A stretch of 37,517 bases of DNA from Bacteroidota bacterium. GTDB taxonomy: Bacteria > Bacteroidota > Bacteroidia > Bacteroidales > VadinHA17. Made by a program: the position numbers and the translations under genes. The notes below the pieces were generated by a model that saw nothing but the letters and a program-made list of their open reading frames with translations, was not told the origin of the DNA and did no database searches. The stretch spans positions 1 to 37,517 of the forward strand of contig JAUVKW010000008.1 in the NCBI GenBank assembly GCA_030596025.1, read 5' to 3'. This document shows, in pieces, positions 8,699-21,628 of the stretch (the stretch's first letter is position 1; each line of letters opens with the position of its first letter).

Positions 8699-9823
8699 TC
8701 AGTTCAGGAATATTTTAATTTCAAATAGCTTTGGCCAGTTCTTGCCGGTCACAAAAAGCCTTTCTCCCTCAGCATCCCAGGCAATTCCATTTAATACATC
8801 AAGCCCGGGGTGACGATCTTCCTCCTTTAAAAGTCCATCCAGATGAATATAAGAAAGTACTTTCCCACTGTTCGGATCTATCATTGCAATTTTATCGGTG
8901 GTATATATATTAGCATATACAATCTCATTAATAAATTCAAGTTCATTCAGGTTATGAACTGCACCCTTGTCATCAAACACCTCAAGTCGGCTCTTTTCGG
9001 TATATGAATTCGGATCCAGAAAGATTAAAGAATTACTGCCATCACTCATAATCAGGCTTTTACTATCAGTTGTGATCCCCCACCCTTGTGTGGCATAATT
9101 TATCTTATTCAAAAATTTAAATGAGTTTTTGTCATAAACAAATCCTACTCCTGAAGTCCATGTAAGTTGAATTATTTTATCTCCATAAATGCATATACCT
9201 TCTCCGAAAATATCCGGGGGAAGGTTTAAGCTGGCCTGCAATTCTCCAGATTCAGCTTGTATCTTACGAAGTGAAGAGCTTCCTCTCTGACCTGTTCCTT
9301 CGTAAATAAATCCCTTTTCATAAACCAATCCCTGGGTGTAAGCATTTTGGTCATGCGGATAAACATGTACTACCTTATAAGAATAATTTTGCGGAACAAT
9401 ATCAGACCCAATGATGATATTTCTTGAAATCCTGCTTGTGCGTTTTCCTTCTGAATAGGTTTCTATCACAAGTCTCTTTGTTCCAGTAGTATGATTACGA
9501 CTTTCAAGCAAAATTTCATAATCTTTAAAGTCAATATATGTTTTTGATTGTCCTTCAAAAGTAAGTTTTACAGAGTCAATCTTTAAAGAACTTTCTTTTT
9601 CTTCTAATAAAACATGAATCTGATCGCCAGACTTAATAATCTGATTTGGTTCAGGAGTAATTATTTCAAGGACCTGGCTACTTTTTTTGGTACTATTGGC
9701 CGGTTTTGTATCTTCCCGGCTTTTTCCTTGCTTATGATTCAGGCTTTGATTATTGCAAGATATCTGGAACAGCATAGTATATACCCCAAAGGCAATAAAA
9801 AGCAGGGTTTTATTTAAGACCAT
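8699..9823 (-). CDS. Glutaminyl-peptide cyclotransferase (glutamine cyclotransferase family), likely lipoprotein
   Basis: A 374-residue exported protein. The N-terminal hydrophobic stretch ends at ISC (Cys23), a candidate lipidation site, although the residues before it are not a textbook lipobox. Residues about 40-140 form a linker or small beta domain. From about residue 145 the sequence is the five-bladed propeller glutamine cyclotransferase domain: YPHDQNAYTQGLVYEKGFIYEGTG, then LTWTSGVGFVYD, YATQGWGITTD, LNELEFINEIVYANIYTTDKIAMID and LNGIAWD. The enzyme converts N-terminal glutamine of peptides to pyroglutamate in the envelope. Its start overlaps the stop of the upstream HAD gene by one base (TAATG), so the two are translationally coupled. 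Confidence 0.88.
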   Translation of the reverse strand: MVLNKTLLFIAFGVYTMLFQISCNNQSLNHKQGKSREDTKPANSTKKSSQVLEIITPEPNQIIKSGDQIHVLLEEKESSLKIDSVKLTFEGQSKTYIDFKDYEILLESRNHTTGTKRLVIETYSEGKRTSRISRNIIIGSDIVPQNYSYKVVHVYPHDQNAYTQGLVYEKGFIYEGTGQRGSSSLRKIQAESGELQASLNLPPDIFGEGICIYGDKIIQLTWTSGVGFVYDKNSFKFLNKINYATQGWGITTDSKSLIMSDGSNSLIFLDPNSYTEKSRLEVFDDKGAVHNLNELEFINEIVYANIYTTDKIAMIDPNSGKVLSYIHLDGLLKEEDRHPGLDVLNGIAWDAEGERLFVTGKNWPKLFEIKIFLN

Positions 9824-10284
9824 TATCTGTTTTTCTTAAAAATATTTAAAACCTTACTCAGACCTGAGCTTTGAAAATAATGATCTGCCCTTTCCTGTTT
9901 TTGTAAAGATCCGTCAGGATCAAGCATTTGCCAGATCAATCCCCAATCAGGAATTCCCCCTAAATTTTTATCATCAATAAAAACATCAGCATTAATCTTC
10001 CTGCTAATTGTTTCATCAAAAACCTCTTCCGGGTAGTTCTTGTTTACAGCATAAAACTCCAGGCCTTTGGTTCTACAGAATTCAACAGCCTCTTCCAATT
10101 CATTACCGGAGCGATAAGTCCAAAGTATGATCTGGCAGCCTAGTTCTTGTAGTTTCCTGAGTGTTTCTATGGAGAATATGATCTCCTTACCAATTTCAGG
10201 GTATTTATGTTCCACTATTGTACCGTCAAAATCGACAGCAATTTTCAGATTCAGGAATTCTTGTTTCATTTTAATATTATTCAT
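9823..10284 (-). CDS. HAD-superfamily hydrolase, BT0820-like
   Basis: A 153-residue protein. Motif I is VDFDGTIV at about residues 17-24 (nucleophile Asp, general acid Asp two residues later). ILWTYRSG near 55-62 supplies motif II, NADVFIDDKNLG near 98-109 the acidic motif IV. There is no large cap domain. It resembles the small BT0820-type HAD proteins of Bacteroidota, whose physiological substrate is unknown. Being joined by a 1-base overlap to glutamine cyclotransferase suggests co-expression, not shared chemistry. The ATG at 10284 is only 2 bp from a TACTTTTG box, so the transcript may be nearly leaderless; a second ATG lies five codons inside. Confidence 0.8.
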   Translation of the reverse strand: MNNIKMKQEFLNLKIAVDFDGTIVEHKYPEIGKEIIFSIETLRKLQELGCQIILWTYRSGNELEEAVEFCRTKGLEFYAVNKNYPEEVFDETISRKINADVFIDDKNLGGIPDWGLIWQMLDPDGSLQKQERADHYFQSSGLSKVLNIFKKNR

Positions 10285-11584: not shown

Positions 11585-13339
11585 TTAGAGTTCAATAGTT
11601 TTATTTAGTTTTCCGGCTTTTCGTGATTCGTAAGAAATATTAAGCTCCCCTTTCCCCGAAACCAGGAATTGATATTCCACCTTTCCGAATCCCGGAACCT
11701 GGCAAAACTGTACTTCAGGTTTGTGTTTCTTATAGCTTACTTTGTCAAAATACAGGTCGGTAATCTTCCCTCCTGAAACTACATTTACTCCCTTTCCGCT
11801 AAGTTTTATTATATCCATAGGATACACCTTGTCCTTCACTGTATGATAGGTTATAGATGGTATGGCCTTATTATTGGTCAATCTAACTCTTATTCGGTAC
11901 AAATCTTTGGCAATTTTTGTCTTCTCAAAAACTTCCATTTTCACTTCAGGTGTTTGTTCAGCAGCAAAGATTACTGCTGCTGCATTTCTGTGCACCAGAT
12001 CCTGTAGCATAAAAGGGTGTGACAACCGGGAACTCATTTTCAACCAACCACCAATCTCAATATCACCATACAAAGGATGCTTATATGATTTCCATGGTGT
12101 GAACAACTCACCCATTGCCACATGATCATTATACTTAAGTTTTTCTCTTGCTCTTTCCTTATTTGGCCCTGAAAAAAAGCTTTCCTCATCAACTTTCTTC
12201 CCTTTTTCAGGCTTACTATAGGTTTCAGTAGCAGACACAAAAAGTTCTCCTATAAAAGTATATGCACCTACAATGTGGTCCATAAAATCACCAAAATCGC
12301 CATAAGTAGAATACAGGTCTTTCCAGCTGATTAAGTAGCGGTAACCAGGAACTATTTTTTCAGCATTTTCTCCCAGGTAATCATAGACCCTGATATCTCC
12401 CGGGTCGAATTCACCCTGTGCTTTAGTGCTTGGCCCCCTTAAAAACATTCCCCCATTATTATGAAAAGCAAATACCATAATGATATTTGGCCTTTTCAGG
12501 ATATAATCTTTTATTGCACTCAATCCAACTCCTGAAAAAGGATAATAACCTGAACCATTTTGCACATACGGAGGGGCCCAGTTATACCCCCAGTTTCGGT
12601 TTGGATCTACATAACCTTCTGAATCTTCATTCACTCTGCCATCTCCGTCGTTATCAATACCTTCATAACCCAGTCTTGTCCATTCCCCTTTTTCACCCGG
12701 TTTTACCCTGATCATGAGACGTGAATCTTCCGGGTCAGTCTTATAATCACCAAAAGGATCTTTTATCCTCATCTGGGTAATGCTTCCATCCCCATCAAGA
12801 TCGTCAGGAAAATCCTCATCAAAAAGTCCGTCCCTGTCATCATCTTTAGGTCTTCTCAGACCACGATTCGTGCTAGGGGTGTTTGCGTCATTGAAAAAAT
12901 GATACCTGCCGTCAACATTTACGCTTGGAATAAGATAAAATGCATTTTTGTCAACCAGCTTTGTTATCTTTTCATTCTTACCATACTTGGTTAGCAATTC
13001 ATTTGCCAGATAGAGACCAACCTCAGCTGCCTGTAGCTCGTTACCGTGAATATTTCCATCCACATAAACACCTGGCTTGGCAAGAGCCTTGCCGGTCTTA
13101 GGGTTATTGATTGTAAGTGCATAGATCTCTCTATTTTCCTCACTTTTCCCAACCATTTCAAGCTCAGTTAAACCTGGAAATGCACTATTAAGAGCCTTCA
13201 ATGCCTCTACTACCTGTTCATAACTGTAATAATAGTCAAACCTAAGAGGAATTGTAATCTTTGCTTGCTGTGCAAAAAGAGGAAAAAGGGAAATGATTCC
13301 CAAAAGAATAAAAGTGGTAACTAGATTTAATTTTTTCAT
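11585..13339 (-). CDS. M14-family zinc carboxypeptidase, exported
   Basis: A 584-residue protein with a signal peptide (residues 1-24). The M14 active site is complete: GNIHGNE gives zinc ligands His98 and Glu101, DPNRN gives Asn247/Arg248 for the substrate carboxylate, FAFHNNGG gives the third zinc ligand His293, and TFIGELF gives catalytic Glu365. Two acidic Ca-binding-like loops (DDDRDGLFDEDFPDDLDGDG at 166-185 and DNDGDGRVNED at 229-239) are inserted between the first and third ligand, a feature of this Bacteroidota subgroup. About residues 440-584 form a C-terminal beta domain. It should trim peptides in the periplasm or outside. It overlaps the preceding paralogue by ATGA. Confidence 0.92.
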   Translation of the reverse strand: MKKLNLVTTFILLGIISLFPLFAQQAKITIPLRFDYYYSYEQVVEALKALNSAFPGLTELEMVGKSEENREIYALTINNPKTGKALAKPGVYVDGNIHGNELQAAEVGLYLANELLTKYGKNEKITKLVDKNAFYLIPSVNVDGRYHFFNDANTPSTNRGLRRPKDDDRDGLFDEDFPDDLDGDGSITQMRIKDPFGDYKTDPEDSRLMIRVKPGEKGEWTRLGYEGIDNDGDGRVNEDSEGYVDPNRNWGYNWAPPYVQNGSGYYPFSGVGLSAIKDYILKRPNIIMVFAFHNNGGMFLRGPSTKAQGEFDPGDIRVYDYLGENAEKIVPGYRYLISWKDLYSTYGDFGDFMDHIVGAYTFIGELFVSATETYSKPEKGKKVDEESFFSGPNKERAREKLKYNDHVAMGELFTPWKSYKHPLYGDIEIGGWLKMSSRLSHPFMLQDLVHRNAAAVIFAAEQTPEVKMEVFEKTKIAKDLYRIRVRLTNNKAIPSITYHTVKDKVYPMDIIKLSGKGVNVVSGGKITDLYFDKVSYKKHKPEVQFCQVPGFGKVEYQFLVSGKGELNISYESRKAGKLNKTIEL

Positions 13340-15384
13340 TTTACACCTCCAATCTTTATTTGTTTCTCATCGCCCCAGGCGAAAACAGAACTTAGTTTAA
13401 CATTTAAATTCACTCCTTTTTCAGTTTCGATCAGCCAGCTAAGTTTCTTGACTTTCAAGCCAGCAATACTATTTATTGGCGTTCTTTTTTTACCAGAAAG
13501 TAAACTTATATCTTTTCCATCAAGTTCAATAACTGCCGGAGCAGGCTGTTCATTTCTCTCTCCCATAGCTGTTGGAAATGGCAAATAAGATCCATTCTCA
13601 ACCCAGATGATTAGCTCATACACACCTGCACCCTGATGCTTTACTTCTGATTGCAAAATACTCAGCCTGGGTAGTTTTTTACATAATTCCAGAACCCATG
13701 GAACCTGTAATGCAAAAAGCGAATCCATAATTTCTTTCGGGGGCGTATTATTGACAAATGGAACAGTCCCACCTATTTCAACATCTCCCAGACCAGGATG
13801 CTTAAACGGGGTCCAGTCCAAAAAACCTTTTCCTCCCAATTGATCATCACTATACGCGAGAAGAGCTTTAGTTTTTGGATCTCCTTCTTTTTCATCCTTG
13901 GGTTTAGGCATATCTTTCATCATACCGGCCATTTGTTTTGGAGATACCTGTCCGCTTTCTACCATTTTTATTACACTCTCGGCCTTAAAATGGTCAGGAG
14001 CACCTGATTCTTTAAGGAAAATGGTAATTTTTTCTTCTCCAAGGGCAATGAAATCTTCAGAAGACATTTTTTCCAGCTTTTCAATGGTAATACCACTATC
14101 CTCCTTTTTTTCTTCTTTAACTTTAGGAAGTGTCCAGAAATCCATTGTAAAACTGGGAATACCCAGGTGATAATACGACCATAATTCAAATGACCCGTCT
14201 TTGGCACTTTGAGGATCCAAACGTTCTGCCTCCAGGCCTTTATCTTTTAAATACTCTTTATACTGATCAGATAGTTCTTTATAGAATTTAAGATCTTTCT
14301 CCAGGGGATTAACAACTGCTCCAAGTCCCAGGAAACTTGCTACCATACTTTCAGTAACAGTCATTCCGGCAGGAACCATAGGTTGCACCAGTTCAATAAT
14401 TTCACTTATGGAATATGTACGGTTTGGATCAGCTCCGAACATTTCTGCCATGCTTTCAGGAATTTTTATCTTATCCATATCCACTCCTGCTTTTCTTCCT
14501 CCTTTTGGAGGTTGCAAACAAAAATTAGTAGCACCAAAATTCATGGTCATTGCAATCTCGGGGTGTTCAAATACAAATTTTATTAACTGAAATGATTCAT
14601 CAGTACAACCGGGCCAAAGACCACTGGTTTTTGTAAATGGCTCAAAAAGGTGAGGGAAATTAATTCCAACATTTACCCCGCCGGCTCCATCCTCGTTATA
14701 CTTACCATCTCCATCATTATCAAGGCCTTCTGAATAAAGTTTATAAATACCTTTTTCTCCTTTGTTTGCATCAGCCTTCCTGAGCATTCTTGGATCTTCA
14801 CTCACAGGTATCCATATGCCTTCCGGGTCTTTAACTCTCATTTGTGTGATGACTCCATTACCATCCAGGTCATTAAAACCATCCTCGTCTGTAAGATCAT
14901 CCATGTCATCATTATGAGCCTTCTTGTTCCTGGGATCAATCCTCAGCGGAGTTTCAAAATAATGAGTGTAAGCATCAGGATTACCACATGGAAGCACATA
15001 CCATGTAAGGTCTTTGGGACCCTGACCGGAGTTTAGGATATAGTCTGCGAGGTAAATGGCAGCCATACTTGAAACTGGTACGGTTCCTTCCATATTTGCA
15101 ACTACTAAAATTGCAGGCAGGGATTTCTTTTCCAGTCCGGCTTCCGGGCCAATTTCCGGCATTTGCAAACTACTATTTCCGGCACTACTAGCCAGTTTTA
15201 TCAACTTTGTTTGCTTTGGGAATTTCTTGTGCAGATCATTCAGAGCATTATTCAAGTCTCCAGGATTAAGATAATCCTGGTAGCTTCCGGATAGTTGCTG
15301 GGCCAGTGTTTTTTCCTGGCTGACGCTCCAGAATACTCCAAATACAAGCGAAAAGAGCATTAACTTTAGAAAATAAAATCTCAT
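13336..15384 (-). CDS. M14-like protein lacking the catalytic residues (pseudo-carboxypeptidase)
   Basis: A 682-residue exported paralogue of the next gene; residues 8-29 form the signal peptide. Alignment by eye is continuous, including the paired acidic loops (DDLTDEDGFNDLDGNG and DNDGDGKYNEDG) and the shared KHPGLGDVEIGG motif before the C-terminal domain. However, the zinc site reads ANMEGTV in place of NIHGNE (Glu99 for His, Val102 for Glu), the PNRN arginine is replaced (GGVNVG), FAFHNN is replaced by MNFGAT, and the GEL glutamate by a MDF stretch. An extra 100-odd residues near 400-510 are Lys/Glu/Met-rich. It is unlikely to hydrolyse peptides; binding, scaffolding or regulation of the active partner is an inference. 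Its stop overlaps the partner start (13336-13339). Confidence 0.85.
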   Translation of the reverse strand: MRFYFLKLMLFSLVFGVFWSVSQEKTLAQQLSGSYQDYLNPGDLNNALNDLHKKFPKQTKLIKLASSAGNSSLQMPEIGPEAGLEKKSLPAILVVANMEGTVPVSSMAAIYLADYILNSGQGPKDLTWYVLPCGNPDAYTHYFETPLRIDPRNKKAHNDDMDDLTDEDGFNDLDGNGVITQMRVKDPEGIWIPVSEDPRMLRKADANKGEKGIYKLYSEGLDNDGDGKYNEDGAGGVNVGINFPHLFEPFTKTSGLWPGCTDESFQLIKFVFEHPEIAMTMNFGATNFCLQPPKGGRKAGVDMDKIKIPESMAEMFGADPNRTYSISEIIELVQPMVPAGMTVTESMVASFLGLGAVVNPLEKDLKFYKELSDQYKEYLKDKGLEAERLDPQSAKDGSFELWSYYHLGIPSFTMDFWTLPKVKEEKKEDSGITIEKLEKMSSEDFIALGEEKITIFLKESGAPDHFKAESVIKMVESGQVSPKQMAGMMKDMPKPKDEKEGDPKTKALLAYSDDQLGGKGFLDWTPFKHPGLGDVEIGGTVPFVNNTPPKEIMDSLFALQVPWVLELCKKLPRLSILQSEVKHQGAGVYELIIWVENGSYLPFPTAMGERNEQPAPAVIELDGKDISLLSGKKRTPINSIAGLKVKKLSWLIETEKGVNLNVKLSSVFAWGDEKQIKIGGVK

Positions 15385-15668: not shown

Positions 15669-16799
15669 TTAATACACATGAGATTCTGAATTTATTTCCT
15701 CTTCAGTGATTTTTTTATTGCTAATTAATTTCCACGTATACCAGATATAAGCAATTACAAATGGTATCATTAATGAAACCACAGCCATCACTTTCAGTGT
15801 ATAATAACTGGATGATGAATTCTCAATAGTAAGTGAACTCTGCAAATCAAATGACGAGGGATAAAAGGCTGTTTGATTCAAACCTGCAATAATAAATAAA
15901 GAAAATACCGTAAGGAATGTTCCAGTGCCTGCAAACCAGATACCCTTAGTTGAGTTCTTAAAAAGGCTTATAAAAAGGCCCCGGAGTACTAGAACTAAGC
16001 CTATAAGAAGAATGGATGTGTTTAATGGCATTTGTAAAACATTATTTAGGTATTTATTTGCCTCCATGAAGATGAGCCCGGTTTCAGGTTCATAAGCAAA
16101 TCCCTCAATAAATAAAAGACGAATTAGGAAAAACAAAAAGAAAACAAGAAACAGGCCTGCCTCATACCACAGCCTCTTTCTCGCTCTTTTTATCAGATCA
16201 TTTCCTTCCAGACTGTTGATCAGAAAAAGAATCCCCAGGGTCCTGGACAAAAATAATATTGCAAAACCGAGGGCAAGATTCTGAATATTCAGTAAGGCTT
16301 CCAGGCCGTAATAGGGAGTTTCCCACTGGGAAAGGTTCATGACATTTACCGAAAATTGTGATCCCGTAAATAAAGTAGCTACAACAACTCCCAGAAGAAA
16401 CGGCCCAAGAGCACCATTGAAAAACAAGAATGCATCATATGTTTTTTTACCAAAAAAATTATTTGGTTTTGACCTGAATTCATAGGACACTGCCTGCACA
16501 ATAAAGCAGAATAAAATAGCCATCCAAACCCAATATGCCCCTCCAAAACTAGTAGCATAAAACAAGGGAAAAGAAGCAAAGAAAGCTCCCCCGAAAGTAA
16601 CGAGAGTTGAAAAAGTAAATTCCCATTTCCTTCCAAGAGCATTAACAATCATGGTTTGTTCTATTTCAGACTTTCCCAAAGAATAAATCAGGGTTTGTCC
16701 CCCTTGTACAAACAACAGGAACACGAGTGCACCCGCCAGTACAGAAATAATTATCCACCAGTATTGTTGTAAAAATAAGTAAGATATATCCAGTAACAT
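15669..16799 (-). CDS. cydB: Cytochrome bd ubiquinol oxidase subunit II
   Basis: A 376-residue membrane protein with about eight or nine hydrophobic segments. The opening (LQQYWWIIISVLAGALVFLLFVQGGQTL) and the stretch near residues 60-115 (FGGAFFASFPLFYATSFGGAYWVWM, then SYEFRSK) are CydB features. CydB pairs with CydA to form the quinol-oxidising, O2-reducing terminal oxidase in the cytoplasmic membrane. The gene follows cydA with a single base between them, so translation is coupled, and is followed by the CydX-like ORF. Confidence 0.93.
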   Translation of the reverse strand: MLLDISYLFLQQYWWIIISVLAGALVFLLFVQGGQTLIYSLGKSEIEQTMIVNALGRKWEFTFSTLVTFGGAFFASFPLFYATSFGGAYWVWMAILFCFIVQAVSYEFRSKPNNFFGKKTYDAFLFFNGALGPFLLGVVVATLFTGSQFSVNVMNLSQWETPYYGLEALLNIQNLALGFAILFLSRTLGILFLINSLEGNDLIKRARKRLWYEAGLFLVFFLFFLIRLLFIEGFAYEPETGLIFMEANKYLNNVLQMPLNTSILLIGLVLVLRGLFISLFKNSTKGIWFAGTGTFLTVFSLFIIAGLNQTAFYPSSFDLQSSLTIENSSSSYYTLKVMAVVSLMIPFVIAYIWYTWKLISNKKITEEEINSESHVY

Positions 16800-16800
16800 T

Positions 16801-18363
16801 TTATTTCCCTCCGTCTTTAGGTCCTAATTTAATTTGCTTAAACATAATCTTCAATTCGGCTATGAGAAGTGCCGTGAAGAGTAGTGCAAAAAGCCAGAAT
16901 GTAATTTGCACTGAACTAACATTAATTTGGGATACTGCAGCCACAGTAGGTAACATATCCTGTATAACCCAGGGTTGCCTTCCAACTTCAGCAACAATCC
17001 AACCTGCTTCAGTAGCTACATAGGCCAGAGGCACCATGATGATTCCGAGCTTCAACAACCATTTCTTATCCTGCAATTTGTTATCTACACTAAAAAACAG
17101 AATCACTGCAAGGAAAATTATAAACATAAAGCCCAGACCCACCATCAGGTGAAAAGAATAGAAAGTCAATGAAACGCTTGGAATAATTGATATTGGGTTC
17201 ATTCCCTTATAGTAACCATAACCGAAATATTGAAAATAGTTTTCCTCCCAATCAGGATCATCAAATTTTTGTTTGAGTTCAATATATCTCTGTTCATCTT
17301 TCCCTTTTGCTTCTTTCAACTCCCTTAAAGTTTCAATTGCAACTGCACCCCGGTTGGCTTTCTCACTGAAAGAAAGAATTCCTCTTTTTTCATTCCCATC
17401 GATGAGGTCCATGATTCCAGGTATAAATCCATCGGGAGAAAGGTGCACCATATAAGATAAAGCACTGGGAATTTCAATTTTGAAGATAAAATCTTTCTTC
17501 CTGTATTCTGCTTGTTCTTTGCCAGAAAGAACTCCTGCGGCAACCAGGGGGGCATTTTCCCGTCCCTCGTAAAGTGCTTCCATAGCTGCAAATTTCATGG
17601 GCTGTGTTCTGGCTACATCGCGGGCTGAATTATCACCCGAGCCAATCATATTTACCGAGGCAACCAATCCGAATGCAGCTGCCACAATGATGCTTTTTTT
17701 AGCAAACATCACATTCCTGTTTTTGATTAAGTACCAGGAACTAATTCCAATCACAACCAAGGCGGCAAGCACATAGCCCTGGGAAACAGTGTGCAGAAAT
17801 TTATTTACTGCAGTTGGTGAAAGCAATACTTCCCAAAAATTCACCATCTCATTGCGGGCAGTATCCGGGTTAAACTTCATTCCTACTGGGTTTTGCATCC
17901 ATGCATTCGCAACAAGGATCCATATTGCGGACAAATTAGAACCGACTGCAACAAGCCATGTAGAGAGAAGATGGAATTTTTTACTTACCTTATTCCATCC
18001 GAAAAACATAACTGCTATAAAGGTGGACTCCAGAAAAAAGGCCATGATTCCTTCTATAGCAAGGGGAGCGCCAAAGATATCCCCAACAAACCAGGAATAA
18101 TTTGACCAGTTAGTTCCAAACTCAAACTCGAGGATAATTCCAGTAGCCACCCCAATAGCAAAGTTAATCCCGAAGATGTTCATCCAGAATTTAGTGGTCT
18201 TTTTCCAGAATTCATCCCCTGTTCTAACATAAATTGACTCCATTATCGCAATGATAAATGAAAGCCCCAGGGTAAGAGGTACAAATAACCAGTGGTAAAG
18301 AGCTGTAAGGGCAAATTGTGCCCTTGACCAATCCACCAGGGACATGTCCAGGTTTTCAATCAT
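16801..18363 (-). CDS. cydA: Cytochrome bd ubiquinol oxidase subunit I
   Basis: A 520-residue membrane protein with the CydA landmarks: ALYHWLFVPLTLGL with haem-ligand His24, the KFLHTVSQGYVL segment with the second His ligand, SFHLMVGLG with the Met ligand of haem b558, and GWIVAEVGRQPW close to the haem b595 site. A hydrophilic Q-loop with AMEALYEGRENAPL lies between, extended at about residues 260-370. It oxidises quinol and reduces O2 to water at high affinity without pumping protons. The start lies 8 bp inside the DUF4492 gene, and cydB follows after 1 bp. Confidence 0.96.
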   Translation of the reverse strand: MIENLDMSLVDWSRAQFALTALYHWLFVPLTLGLSFIIAIMESIYVRTGDEFWKKTTKFWMNIFGINFAIGVATGIILEFEFGTNWSNYSWFVGDIFGAPLAIEGIMAFFLESTFIAVMFFGWNKVSKKFHLLSTWLVAVGSNLSAIWILVANAWMQNPVGMKFNPDTARNEMVNFWEVLLSPTAVNKFLHTVSQGYVLAALVVIGISSWYLIKNRNVMFAKKSIIVAAAFGLVASVNMIGSGDNSARDVARTQPMKFAAMEALYEGRENAPLVAAGVLSGKEQAEYRKKDFIFKIEIPSALSYMVHLSPDGFIPGIMDLIDGNEKRGILSFSEKANRGAVAIETLRELKEAKGKDEQRYIELKQKFDDPDWEENYFQYFGYGYYKGMNPISIIPSVSLTFYSFHLMVGLGFMFIIFLAVILFFSVDNKLQDKKWLLKLGIIMVPLAYVATEAGWIVAEVGRQPWVIQDMLPTVAAVSQINVSSVQITFWLFALLFTALLIAELKIMFKQIKLGPKDGGK

Positions 18364-18586
18364 TATTATTTATTTTGGGTTTAGTTAGTTGCTCTATTAC
18401 ATAATTTCCCCTTTCCTCATCGCTGGCAAATTTTGATTTTAAAACATCAGGGAAAAAGAATAGCTTTAAAATAGCGAACATTATAAATAGTTTTACAAGA
18501 ATAATTATCCATAGAGTTCTGCCAAATGTCATATTCCTAAAACCATCGTAATATAAGTAGAAGACTTTCTTAAATACTTTTCTCAT
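18356..18586 (-). CDS. DUF4492 small membrane protein of the cyd operon
   Basis: A 76-residue protein with one membrane segment at about residues 24-44 (LWIIILVKLFIMFAILKLFFFP) between charged ends. FYLYYDGFRNMTFGRTLW is the signature of DUF4492, a family found in front of cydA in Bacteroidota and relatives. It overlaps the cydA start by 8 bp, so expression is tightly coupled. A role in assembly or stability of the bd oxidase is inferred from this constant linkage; no biochemical function is established. Confidence 0.85.
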   Translation of the reverse strand: MRKVFKKVFYLYYDGFRNMTFGRTLWIIILVKLFIMFAILKLFFFPDVLKSKFASDEERGNYVIEQLTKPKINNND

Positions 18587-18613
18587 TGCTAAAAAATTCT
18601 CCTGGGGTTAAGG

Positions 18614-18621
18614 CAAAAATA
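18614..18621 (-). promoter_or_regulatory. -7 box TATTTTTG upstream of the cyd operon
   Basis: A minus-strand TAnnTTTG match 27 bp before the DUF4492 ATG. The -33 element is not evident at the standard distance, so an activator may be needed or the site may be fortuitous. Confidence 0.35.
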
Positions 18622-18666
18622 CCTATTAGATAATAATGATAAAGAACCTTGCAAAGTAAAAGACAC

Positions 18667-19236
18667 TTATCTGATCAGGTGAAAAAAACCAGATTTGACA
18701 AATTTGTCATCAAAGCTAAGAACATAGTAGTAAACTCCGGGAAAGACTTCCGCTCCTGAGGGAGATTTCCCATCCCAGGTAAAAGTATAAGAACTTTTCT
18801 TATAGACCTGAGTGCCTGAAGAATTATAGATGGTAAGTGAATACAAGGTTTGGCCATTGGTCCTAAGTACCAGAAAATCATTTTTGCCATCTCCGTTGGG
18901 AGTGAAAACATTTGGAACCTCCACCTTATTTCGAACATTGATTTTCATTGAGGAGGAGGCTGTTGATCCGGCATCAGAAACCATAAAGGAAACCAGATAG
19001 CTCCCTGGATTTTGATAGGAGTGACTGACAACAGGAAGGTGAGAAGTTTGTCCATCGCCAAAATTCCAGGCAAAGGTAAAGGCAGAGGTATCTGAGAGCG
19101 GGTAGTTACTGCTAAGATGAATAGTATAAGAATGAATATCATTGGTATCTACCTGAAAGCTTGCATCCAATTGACCTGAAACAGACAAACTGCCTGAAAG
19201 GATCAATAAGAATAGAAGGGATTGTAATTTGTTCAT
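18667..19236 (-). CDS. Short PKD-domain protein with type IX secretion C-terminal domain
   Basis: Starting at the ATG at 19236 (an upstream TTG at 19251 is unlikely) the protein has 189 residues. Residues 1-21 are a signal peptide (LLFLLILSGSLSVSGQ). A PKD-like domain follows (FAWNFGDGQTS...SHSYQNPGSYLVSFMVSD). The last 85 or so residues are the gliding-motility/type B T9SS C-terminal domain: VPNVFTPNGDGKNDFLVL, then SLTIYNSSGTQVYKK, WDGKSPSGAEVFPGVYYYVL. This marks export across the outer membrane by the type IX system. Such sorting domains usually end proteins of several hundred to thousands of residues, so this carrier is unusually small. It starts 7 bp after the AI-2E family gene. Confidence 0.88.
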   Translation of the reverse strand: MNKLQSLLFLLILSGSLSVSGQLDASFQVDTNDIHSYTIHLSSNYPLSDTSAFTFAWNFGDGQTSHLPVVSHSYQNPGSYLVSFMVSDAGSTASSSMKINVRNKVEVPNVFTPNGDGKNDFLVLRTNGQTLYSLTIYNSSGTQVYKKSSYTFTWDGKSPSGAEVFPGVYYYVLSFDDKFVKSGFFHLIR

Positions 19237-19243
19237 AAACAAT

Positions 19244-20350
19244 TCAATCAATTTTTTCAGTTATTTTTTTCACAAGTTTAAAGCGATCCAAAAATTCACG
19301 GGCAAAAACCCGGATTACTGTATACCCCGGAATCGCGAGAATCATTCCAGGAATCCCTGCAAAACTACCTGCAATTATGATCACAAGAAAAATCTCAAGT
19401 GGATGTGCTTTTACTGATGTTCCATAAATAAAAGGTTGAAAAACAACATTATCAATTACCTGGACTGCAGCAAACACAATAGCCATAAAAGCCAATAAAG
19501 GTAATAATTCCGAATAAAACTCTAAATGCAGATGATTGGCAATGCCAAGAATCATTCCAATTGAAGCCCCTATCAATGGTCCGATGTAAGGAATTACATT
19601 AAATACACCGGCGGTAAGACCAATAACAGCTGCTAATTGAAACTTGAGACCTACGATTATCATACCCAGGGTAACCAGAATTGTTATCGAAGATACCTGC
19701 AAAAGGATCCCGATAAAATACCTGGTTAGAAGTTCTTTTGTTGAATGAAGGAAACTTTCAAATTTTTCTTCGTATTGAGTGGGGACAAAAAGTAAGATCC
19801 CCTCCGCAAATAATTGTTTATCCTTTAAAAAGAAAAAAGTGATAAAGCTAACTGCAAAAAAGGCGAAAAAAATCTGTCCCATCACTCCAACAGTTCCGCC
19901 AATTGCACTTGAAATGGCTGAAACATTGAGGAAAGAAAGTAGTTTTCTCTCAAGCATTTGTTCCAAAGAAATATCTTCTTTACCGTTTAGTTCAAACCTG
20001 TTCATCAAAGATGTGAGCTTACCTAAAGGTTCCGAAAGGCTGTCTTGAATTGCCTGTAAGTTAATTTTTGAAAGTTCCTGGATCTGATTTCCCAGTAATG
20101 GGATAAAGATTAAGAAAAAAGATACTATAATTGCCCAGAGAGTAAGCAAGGTAATAAATGCACTCAGGGCATTTGGCATGTGAAAACTTTTGTATTTAAA
20201 TTTATTAAGAAGGGAAACAACAGGTCTTCCAATAAAGGAGAACACCACGGCAAGAAGAATATACGCTACAATATTCTTAAAATACCACAGGATCAATGCA
20301 GTTGCTACTACTGAAAGTGCAAGAACAATATATTTAAGATTACCCTTCAT
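19244..20350 (-). CDS. AI-2E family (PerM-like) membrane transporter
   Basis: A 368-residue membrane protein when started at the ATG at 20350; the longer frame to 20377 needs a TTG. It has about eight hydrophobic segments: a pair at the start, a long hydrophilic stretch near residues 85-140, then a C-terminal membrane block. FNVIPYIGPLIGASIGMILG and the later QVIDNVVFQPFIYG...HPLEIFLVIIIAGSFAGIPGMILAIP are the conserved core of the AI-2E/UPF0118 family. Members have been implicated in export of varied small molecules or in Na+/H+ exchange; the substrate here cannot be predicted. It is followed by the small T9SS-sorted protein. Confidence 0.88.
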   Translation of the reverse strand: MKGNLKYIVLALSVVATALILWYFKNIVAYILLAVVFSFIGRPVVSLLNKFKYKSFHMPNALSAFITLLTLWAIIVSFFLIFIPLLGNQIQELSKINLQAIQDSLSEPLGKLTSLMNRFELNGKEDISLEQMLERKLLSFLNVSAISSAIGGTVGVMGQIFFAFFAVSFITFFFLKDKQLFAEGILLFVPTQYEEKFESFLHSTKELLTRYFIGILLQVSSITILVTLGMIIVGLKFQLAAVIGLTAGVFNVIPYIGPLIGASIGMILGIANHLHLEFYSELLPLLAFMAIVFAAVQVIDNVVFQPFIYGTSVKAHPLEIFLVIIIAGSFAGIPGMILAIPGYTVIRVFAREFLDRFKLVKKITEKID

Positions 20351-20407
20351 GAATATCTTTGACCTACTAAAATACAAATTTCAAGCTGCAAATTAAATTT
20401 TTTTCAG

Positions 20408-21628
20408 CTATTCTGTCATGGATTCAAGAACAAACTGCCCAAAAGATTCTCCAAATTTTTTCAGTTCATTGGATTTTGCCTTATTTGGACAAAACTTATA
20501 AAGAGCATGCGAATCAAAAAGTTTAAGCTTCAGTGCCTTCAGGTTTGCTTCAATAATCTCAACAGCTTCCCCGCTCCATCCATATGAACCAAAGGTGGCA
20601 GCAGTCTTACCTTTATCGCGAATGGGATTGATGGCTGAGAACAACCTGTAAACCGGGAGAAGTGTATTTTGATTAATTGTTGGCGAACCCACAAGAAGAG
20701 ATGAGCTTCGAATTAGTTGTTCTTCCAGTTCACCAAGAGAAGCTGTTTCAAGATCAATCATCTCAGTTTTAATCTTACCGGCTGATTTCAGTCCCTCTTC
20801 AACATTAAGAGCCATTTCACGGGTATAACCATAGGCAGAGACATAAGCAATTAATACCCGCGGATCTTCTTGATCTACCACAGCCAGGTATTGTTTGGCT
20901 TTTGCTTCAGATATATCCACATATTTTTGCCAGTTTGATCTGAGGATTGGGCCATGACCAGGACAAACAATATCGATTTCAAGAGGCCTGATTTTTTCTA
21001 TGGCCTTCAGCATAAATTTACTATAAGGCCTCAAAATCACATCAAAATAATAATTAAAGGCTTCATCAAAAGGACCAACAAGATCATCAAACATCTTCTC
21101 ATTACAGTAATGACTCCCAAAAGAATCACAGCTAAACAAGATTTTTTCCTCAAGCAGGTAGGTGTACATAGTGTCAGGCCAGTGAAGATTTGGTGCACCA
21201 ATGAATTTCAGGGTTATGTTTCCCAAATCCAGTTCATCCCCGTTTTTCACCTGCCTGAATTTGAATTCCGCTCCAATCATATCCTGAAGATACCGAATAG
21301 CAGATCCGCTTCCAACTACAGTGGCCTTAGGTGCCAATTTAAGAAGATGCTTTAAATTACCTGAGTGATCGGGTTCTGTATGATTCAAAACAATATACTC
21401 TATATCAGCAGGATCTGTCAGGGATTTTATCTTTCCCAGGTATTGTTCTTTAAATTTTTCTTTGGTGGTTTCTATAATTGTCTTCTTTTGGGCATCTATG
21501 AAAAATGAATTATAGGTAGTGCCGTAGTCTGTAGACATAACAACATCAAAACTTACAATATCATAATCAAGTGCACCTATCCATTTAACAGTTTTTGAAA
21601 CATCTAATATCTTATTTATTGACTTCAT
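20408..21628 (-). CDS. fprA: Flavodiiron protein (A-type flavoprotein, O2/NO reductase)
   Basis: A 406-residue soluble protein. The N-terminal metallo-beta-lactamase-like domain has the diiron ligands: HTEPDHSG near residues 82-89, a later His in NLHWPDTMYTYL, Asp in SCDSFGSHY, and His in CPGHGPIL. From about residue 255 comes a flavodoxin domain (VLIAYVSAYGYTREMA, phosphate loop; then SPTINQNTLLPV and FGSYGWSGEA) that binds FMN. There is no rubredoxin extension. Such enzymes reduce O2 to water or NO to N2O to protect anaerobic metabolism. Standing near the cyd operon on the same strand, it suggests an oxygen-stress setting. Confidence 0.94.
   Translation of the reverse strand: MKSINKILDVSKTVKWIGALDYDIVSFDVVMSTDYGTTYNSFFIDAQKKTIIETTKEKFKEQYLGKIKSLTDPADIEYIVLNHTEPDHSGNLKHLLKLAPKATVVGSGSAIRYLQDMIGAEFKFRQVKNGDELDLGNITLKFIGAPNLHWPDTMYTYLLEEKILFSCDSFGSHYCNEKMFDDLVGPFDEAFNYYFDVILRPYSKFMLKAIEKIRPLEIDIVCPGHGPILRSNWQKYVDISEAKAKQYLAVVDQEDPRVLIAYVSAYGYTREMALNVEEGLKSAGKIKTEMIDLETASLGELEEQLIRSSSLLVGSPTINQNTLLPVYRLFSAINPIRDKGKTAATFGSYGWSGEAVEIIEANLKALKLKLFDSHALYKFCPNKAKSNELKKFGESFGQFVLESMTE

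Follow-up and report, generated by a model that had tools for sequence, protein, structure and literature searches.

Paired active and inactive peptidases

M14 carboxypeptidases are generally regarded as enzymes that work on their own. Adjoining gene pairs in which one product is a non-catalytic homologue of the other are known from the M16B peptidases, where they are proven heteromers in bacteria: in TTHA1264/TTHA1265 (encoded by neighbouring genes), SPH2681/SPH2682 and Bcn-gP1/Bcn-gP2, a zinc subunit binds its homologous non-catalytic subunit (PMC12731061; PMC8960859). Within M14, pseudopeptidases have been reviewed for vertebrates, Drosophila carboxypeptidase D (CPD) and yeast, and include domain III of CPD (CPD-III), which lies in cis with two active domains (PMC11266112). 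AEBP1/ACLP, CPXM1, CPXM2 and yeast Ecm14 are M14 pseudopeptidases that are exported or extracellular; they are stand-alone proteins that keep H69 and E72 (carboxypeptidase A numbering), and no adjacent active partner is described for them in the two sources consulted (PMC11266112, PMC7706225).

The window analysed here, a stretch of 37,517 nucleotides from a member of the Bacteroidota, contains two tandem M14 genes on the minus strand. The upstream gene (15384-13336) encodes a 682-aa, predicted exported protein that appears to be a catalytically dead pseudo-carboxypeptidase, and the downstream gene (13339-11585) a 584-aa carboxypeptidase with the full catalytic set H98/E101/N247/R248/H293/Y343/E365. 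Both ORFs are intact, and the start and stop codons overlap by four bases, ATGA, at 13336-13339 (minus strand), as an initial sequence-only reading of the locus had described. The same reading had aligned the two proteins along their length, and BLASTP indeed recovers the N-terminal 282 residues (29% identity, E 1e-26) plus the C-terminal 134 residues. Both proteins match Pfam M14 (PF00246), the dead protein at 43.9 bits over residues 45-153 (cut-off 21.6) and the active protein at 129.4 bits, and neither has a Pfam match to the M16 family.

As in the M16B pairs and the alpha and beta subunits of mitochondrial processing peptidase (MPP), one of two homologues carries the zinc motif and the other does not; as in TTHA1264/TTHA1265, the catalytic and non-catalytic homologues are encoded by adjacent genes, here at 130 of 130 testable loci. 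The M14 pair is, however, unrelated in fold and clan to M16B, an HXXEH M16 endopeptidase of clam-shell form, and in contrast to M16B the dead gene comes first in every pair seen. Whereas the M16B complex is proven, for the M14 pair we infer one. Nearer in family is CPD-III of vertebrates and Drosophila, an inactive M14 beside active M14 with nearly all active-site residues changed (PMC11266112), but CPD-III is eukaryotic, lies in cis in one polypeptide, keeps H69 and has A72, D196 and Y270. Unlike AEBP1/ACLP, CPXM1, CPXM2 and Ecm14, the dead protein described here is without any zinc ligand. Active/inactive peptidase pairs are already known as a kind; the M14 version is apparently undescribed, as no account of a bacterial dead/active M14 gene pair was found in the open-access literature. 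The M14 pseudopeptidases in the review (PMC11266112) are eukaryotic, and the pair reported here spans two bacterial phyla.

Active site and fold of the upstream protein

Residue correspondences were read from an alignment of all homologues. In the dead protein all three zinc ligands are replaced, H69 by E99 and E72 by V102 (EGTV, residues 99-102, 15079-15090, at the HxxE motif) and H196 by G284 (14533-14535); the substrate-binding N144/R145 correspond to G240/I241 (14662-14667), and the catalytic E270 to D415 (14140-14142), a conservative change. Expressed from active to dead protein, these are H98>E99, E101>V102, N247>G240, R248>I241, H293>G284 and E365>D415, and the changes in the zinc ligands, substrate arginine and catalytic glutamate on which the sequence-only reading was built are thereby borne out. 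The partner retains the full M14 set of H69, E72, N144, R145, H196, Y248 and E270, with Y343 as the Y248 equivalent. A zinc site rebuilt from ligands elsewhere in the sequence, which had been raised as a possible objection, was not found by sequence alignment in the dead protein or in the window's clade.

Homologues were sought with a dead-protein profile, without linkage as a criterion, in about 930 genomes of Bacteroidota and Aminicenantes (393 from the order, 395 from the phylum and 142 from the class to which a Candidatus Aminicenantes genome belongs), and the single dead sequence served as query against 60 close relatives. A strong match to the profile occurred in 93 of the 142 genomes of the Aminicenantes class; DNA was fetched around matches, in part only for Aminicenantes. 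Loss of all three zinc ligands defined the class of dead homologues (n=135), a count that, like those that follow, refers to sampled genomes, mostly metagenome-assembled, and fetched loci, with relatives mutually non-independent. The third zinc ligand position is G or S in 133 of the 135, the H69 position E or D in 111 and the E270 position D in 74, and the Y248 equivalent is aligned in none. At the E72 position H is found in 48, producing a swapped E-x-x-H in many dead homologues; this replacement of HxxE is frequent outside the window's clade, in L128, L129, L160-L178 and others.

These substitutions could be read as the rebuilt active site of a different enzyme, formed for example by E99 and D415 or by the swapped E-x-x-H of relatives, and the prevalence of acidic residues at H69 and E270 and of H at E72 would agree with this. 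The almost uniform G or S at the third ligand, the EGTV of the window's clade with no swapped H, and the absence of any aligned Y248 argue against it, and such an enzyme is considered very improbable. A residual or altered metal site is possible in the relatives with E-x-x-H, but unlikely in the window's dead protein. The R of N144/R145 is kept in 45 of the 135, several dead clades keeping the pair, and the window's clade has lost both residues. The pattern suggests that catalytic change was stepwise, with zinc ligands lost in every dead clade and further losses in that of the window.

Structure prediction, one of the checks proposed at the outset, gave for the dead protein an M14 alpha/beta fold with a mean pLDDT of 75.2; the active partner's model, with a mean pLDDT of 65.5, was left out of structural analysis. 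The top Foldseek matches of the dead model are carboxypeptidases, with probability 1.00 for the top M14 matches, and VIA comparison with M14 gave Z 23.4 over 257 residues at 3.2 A. In fold (VIA Z about 22-23) and Pfam family (PF00246) the protein resembles the active carboxypeptidases T, A, B, M and N; unlike them, it has its zinc ligands, N144, R145 and E270 replaced, and it adds an acidic-loop segment and two insertions. The two acidic DxDxDG-like loops, at residues 157-185 (14830-14916) and 218-236 (14677-14733), are common to the active protein. The segment between H196 and E270 is enlarged by a net gain of about 59 aa relative to active enzymes (residues 296-395, 14200-14499, with a conserved FLGLGAVVNP), and that after E270 by about 46 aa. 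A Lys/Glu-rich stretch, predicted helical, occupies residues 421-505 (13870-14124), with 34% K+E compared with 17% overall. The single Lys/Glu-rich insert of about 100 residues noted earlier is thus present, but the stretch is about 85 residues long and the net insertions are two.

Linkage, selection and ancestry

A same-strand M14 homologue lies directly downstream in 130 of the 135 dead homologues, and the other five end at contig ends. Among the 130 partners, all 127 full-length proteins have the complete catalytic set and three are cut short. The dead gene is the upstream cistron in every pair seen, and three more loci (L199-L201) have the same order. Spacing between the genes has a median of 2 bp and never exceeds 118 bp (n=130), with fewer than 30 bp, overlaps included, in 121 pairs and the exact four-base overlap in 35; very negative spacings reflect over-extended ORF starts. 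In the reverse direction, a cross-check against the dead-gene list together with five loci fetched for it placed a dead gene directly upstream of 31 of 32 active-partner-clade genes in the 393 same-order genomes. The sole exception is G349, in which the active gene begins at a contig start; elsewhere in that genome a dead gene ends at a contig end.

Neither decayed nor unlinked relatives, which had been anticipated as the evidence most damaging to a maintained pair, were found among these loci. A seemingly decayed dead copy in L046/G005 (a 333-aa ORF) has its N-terminus removed by an assembly gap of Ns, and the apparently unpaired dead genes in L159 and L176 arose from mechanical start choice that over-extended the partner ORF. 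Dead-active gene fusion was also set aside, the long ORFs holding one M14 domain each. In L144 and L185 a tandem of two active M14 genes follows the dead one, all in the same orientation. A conserved third gene was not seen, the best neighbour occurring at no more than 15 of about 109 loci; cydAB and pssA were rejected as conserved partners, their synteny holding within lineages only.

The invariable upstream position of the dead gene, often with coupled translation, invites the view that its product is made first, as it is encoded first, and serves as a dedicated inhibitor, an intramolecular-chaperone-like folding helper or a secretion partner. The extra conserved segments at 296-395 and 421-505 would fit this view. 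However, the protein lacks a small domain of propeptide type and keeps the entire M14 fold under strong constraint, and the inserts vary by clade, with many B-type dead proteins lacking the first and L065 lacking the second. This role seems improbable.

Within the clade, pairwise dN/dS by the Nei-Gojobori method was 0.059-0.101 for the dead gene and 0.044-0.105 for the active partners of the same genomes, several dS values being near saturation. A single stop codon is listed for just a few dead-homologue matches, all from the close-relative search, and is presumed to be an end-of-match stop. With these ratios and no decayed relative among the 135 dead homologues, the suggestion that the dead gene is maintained stands, and a protein whose catalytic residues are gone while its gene is under purifying selection is best regarded as a probable pseudoenzyme. 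Conservation around N144/R145 and around E270 is 0.82 compared with a protein mean of 0.64; selection therefore still acts on the region of the old active site, though no longer for zinc catalysis. This excess, the retention of N144/R145 in several dead clades despite zinc-ligand loss, and a near-invariant F-E-L-W-x-Y-Y-H-L-G motif before the E270 position would be expected of a periplasmic binding protein, in which a re-shaped M14 pocket captures peptide C-termini, either passing them to the active enzyme or competing with it, and no stable complex is formed. N144/R145 are gone from the window's own clade, however, and binding by itself leaves the fixed gene order, the start/stop overlap and the absence of solitary copies unexplained; we regard this role as unlikely.

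Phylogeny, also among the proposed checks, placed the inactive form in one ancient clade. A maximum likelihood tree built from 66 proteins after removal of the catalytic columns groups the dead proteins in one clade (UFBoot/SH-aLRT 100/100) and the active partners in another (100/99); a quick tree of 116 proteins agrees. Each of the five pair types is a single clade both among the dead and among the active proteins, and across 106 pairs the dead and active distances have a correlation of 0.92, where permutation gave at most 0.13. A single loss of catalysis before the five pair types arose is the parsimonious reading of these trees. Bacteroidota and Aminicenantes are intermixed within at least two pair types, and therefore the pair probably moved between phyla as a unit, insofar as trees of unknown root can indicate this. 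The dead site itself is all that would favor a recent inactive duplicate heading for loss; a single ancient clade in two phyla, dN/dS of about 0.1 or below and the lack of any decayed relative leave that explanation with next to no credence.

The window's genome carries, on contig C88 (L008:5688-9697), another M14 tandem whose two members each have the complete catalytic set; this active/active pair is also found in L049, L077, L078, L079, L130 and L135, so tandem M14 pairs go beyond the dead/active kind. The dead clade was considered as a sister of the upstream gene of the C88 pair, but this was unsupported; it branches apart, with the root unknown.

A proposed two-gene carboxypeptidase module

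Loss of the catalytic residues, retention of the fold, sequence constraint, a single dead clade, near-obligate linkage in a fixed order and mirrored trees together establish that the dead and active genes depend on each other in evolution. An N-terminal hydrophobic, signal-peptide-like segment was identified by hydropathy in the window's dead protein (residues 1-29, 15298-15384), in its active partner, and overall in 128 of the 132 dead copies and 120 of the 127 active ones; therefore both proteins are probably exported to the periplasm. The earlier description of the dead protein as exported is upheld as to the segment, with export itself following as a probability.

The explanation that we favor, with somewhat more confidence than doubt, is a two-gene module in which the upstream cistron would provide an exported M14 metallocarboxypeptidase with a non-catalytic homologue as its dedicated partner. 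A single, ancient event would have deprived the upstream M14 copy of its zinc site, and selection would since have preserved that copy alongside its partner while the pair was duplicated and spread between phyla. The dead protein would most likely be a subunit of a heteromeric periplasmic carboxypeptidase, contact between the two proteins being presumed; its role would lie in structure, in substrate binding or in control of access, with zinc and catalysis provided by the downstream subunit. Export, the complex and the dead subunit's contribution are what we infer from the paired genes. Linkage and mirrored trees would also be compatible with two proteins that act in one pathway and make no contact. 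An M14 enzyme as a rule needs no homologous partner for activity, in contrast to the M16 clam-shell, and therefore the M16 analogy does not force a complex.

Chances appear about even that these pairs constitute a bacterial two-subunit metallocarboxypeptidase family, in which one M14 was inactivated before the pair diversified, became an obligate partner and spread with it as a unit across Bacteroidota and Aminicenantes; if so, the family would be an M14 counterpart of the MPP/M16B heterodimers. The near-obligate dead/active linkage lends itself to exploring why an inactive enzyme is retained by selection next to an active one, and where dead genes carry no label but "M14 family zinc peptidase", the annotation may wrongly present them as peptidases.

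The genes surrounding the pair include, at 8699-10284 of the window, directly overlapping genes for a glutamine cyclotransferase-family protein (PF05096) and a BT0820-type HAD phosphatase; in L063 (8333-9916) the HAD part stands at the start of one long ORF, and a fusion is possible. Upstream of the pair, within 15669-21628, lie cydA/cydB, encoding a bd oxidase, with a gene for a flavodiiron-type protein nearby (20408-21628). Several relatives, all of the same family, also have cydAB beside the pair. Together, cydA/cydB and the flavodiiron-type protein make up an oxygen-handling cluster, in what is probably an anaerobe.
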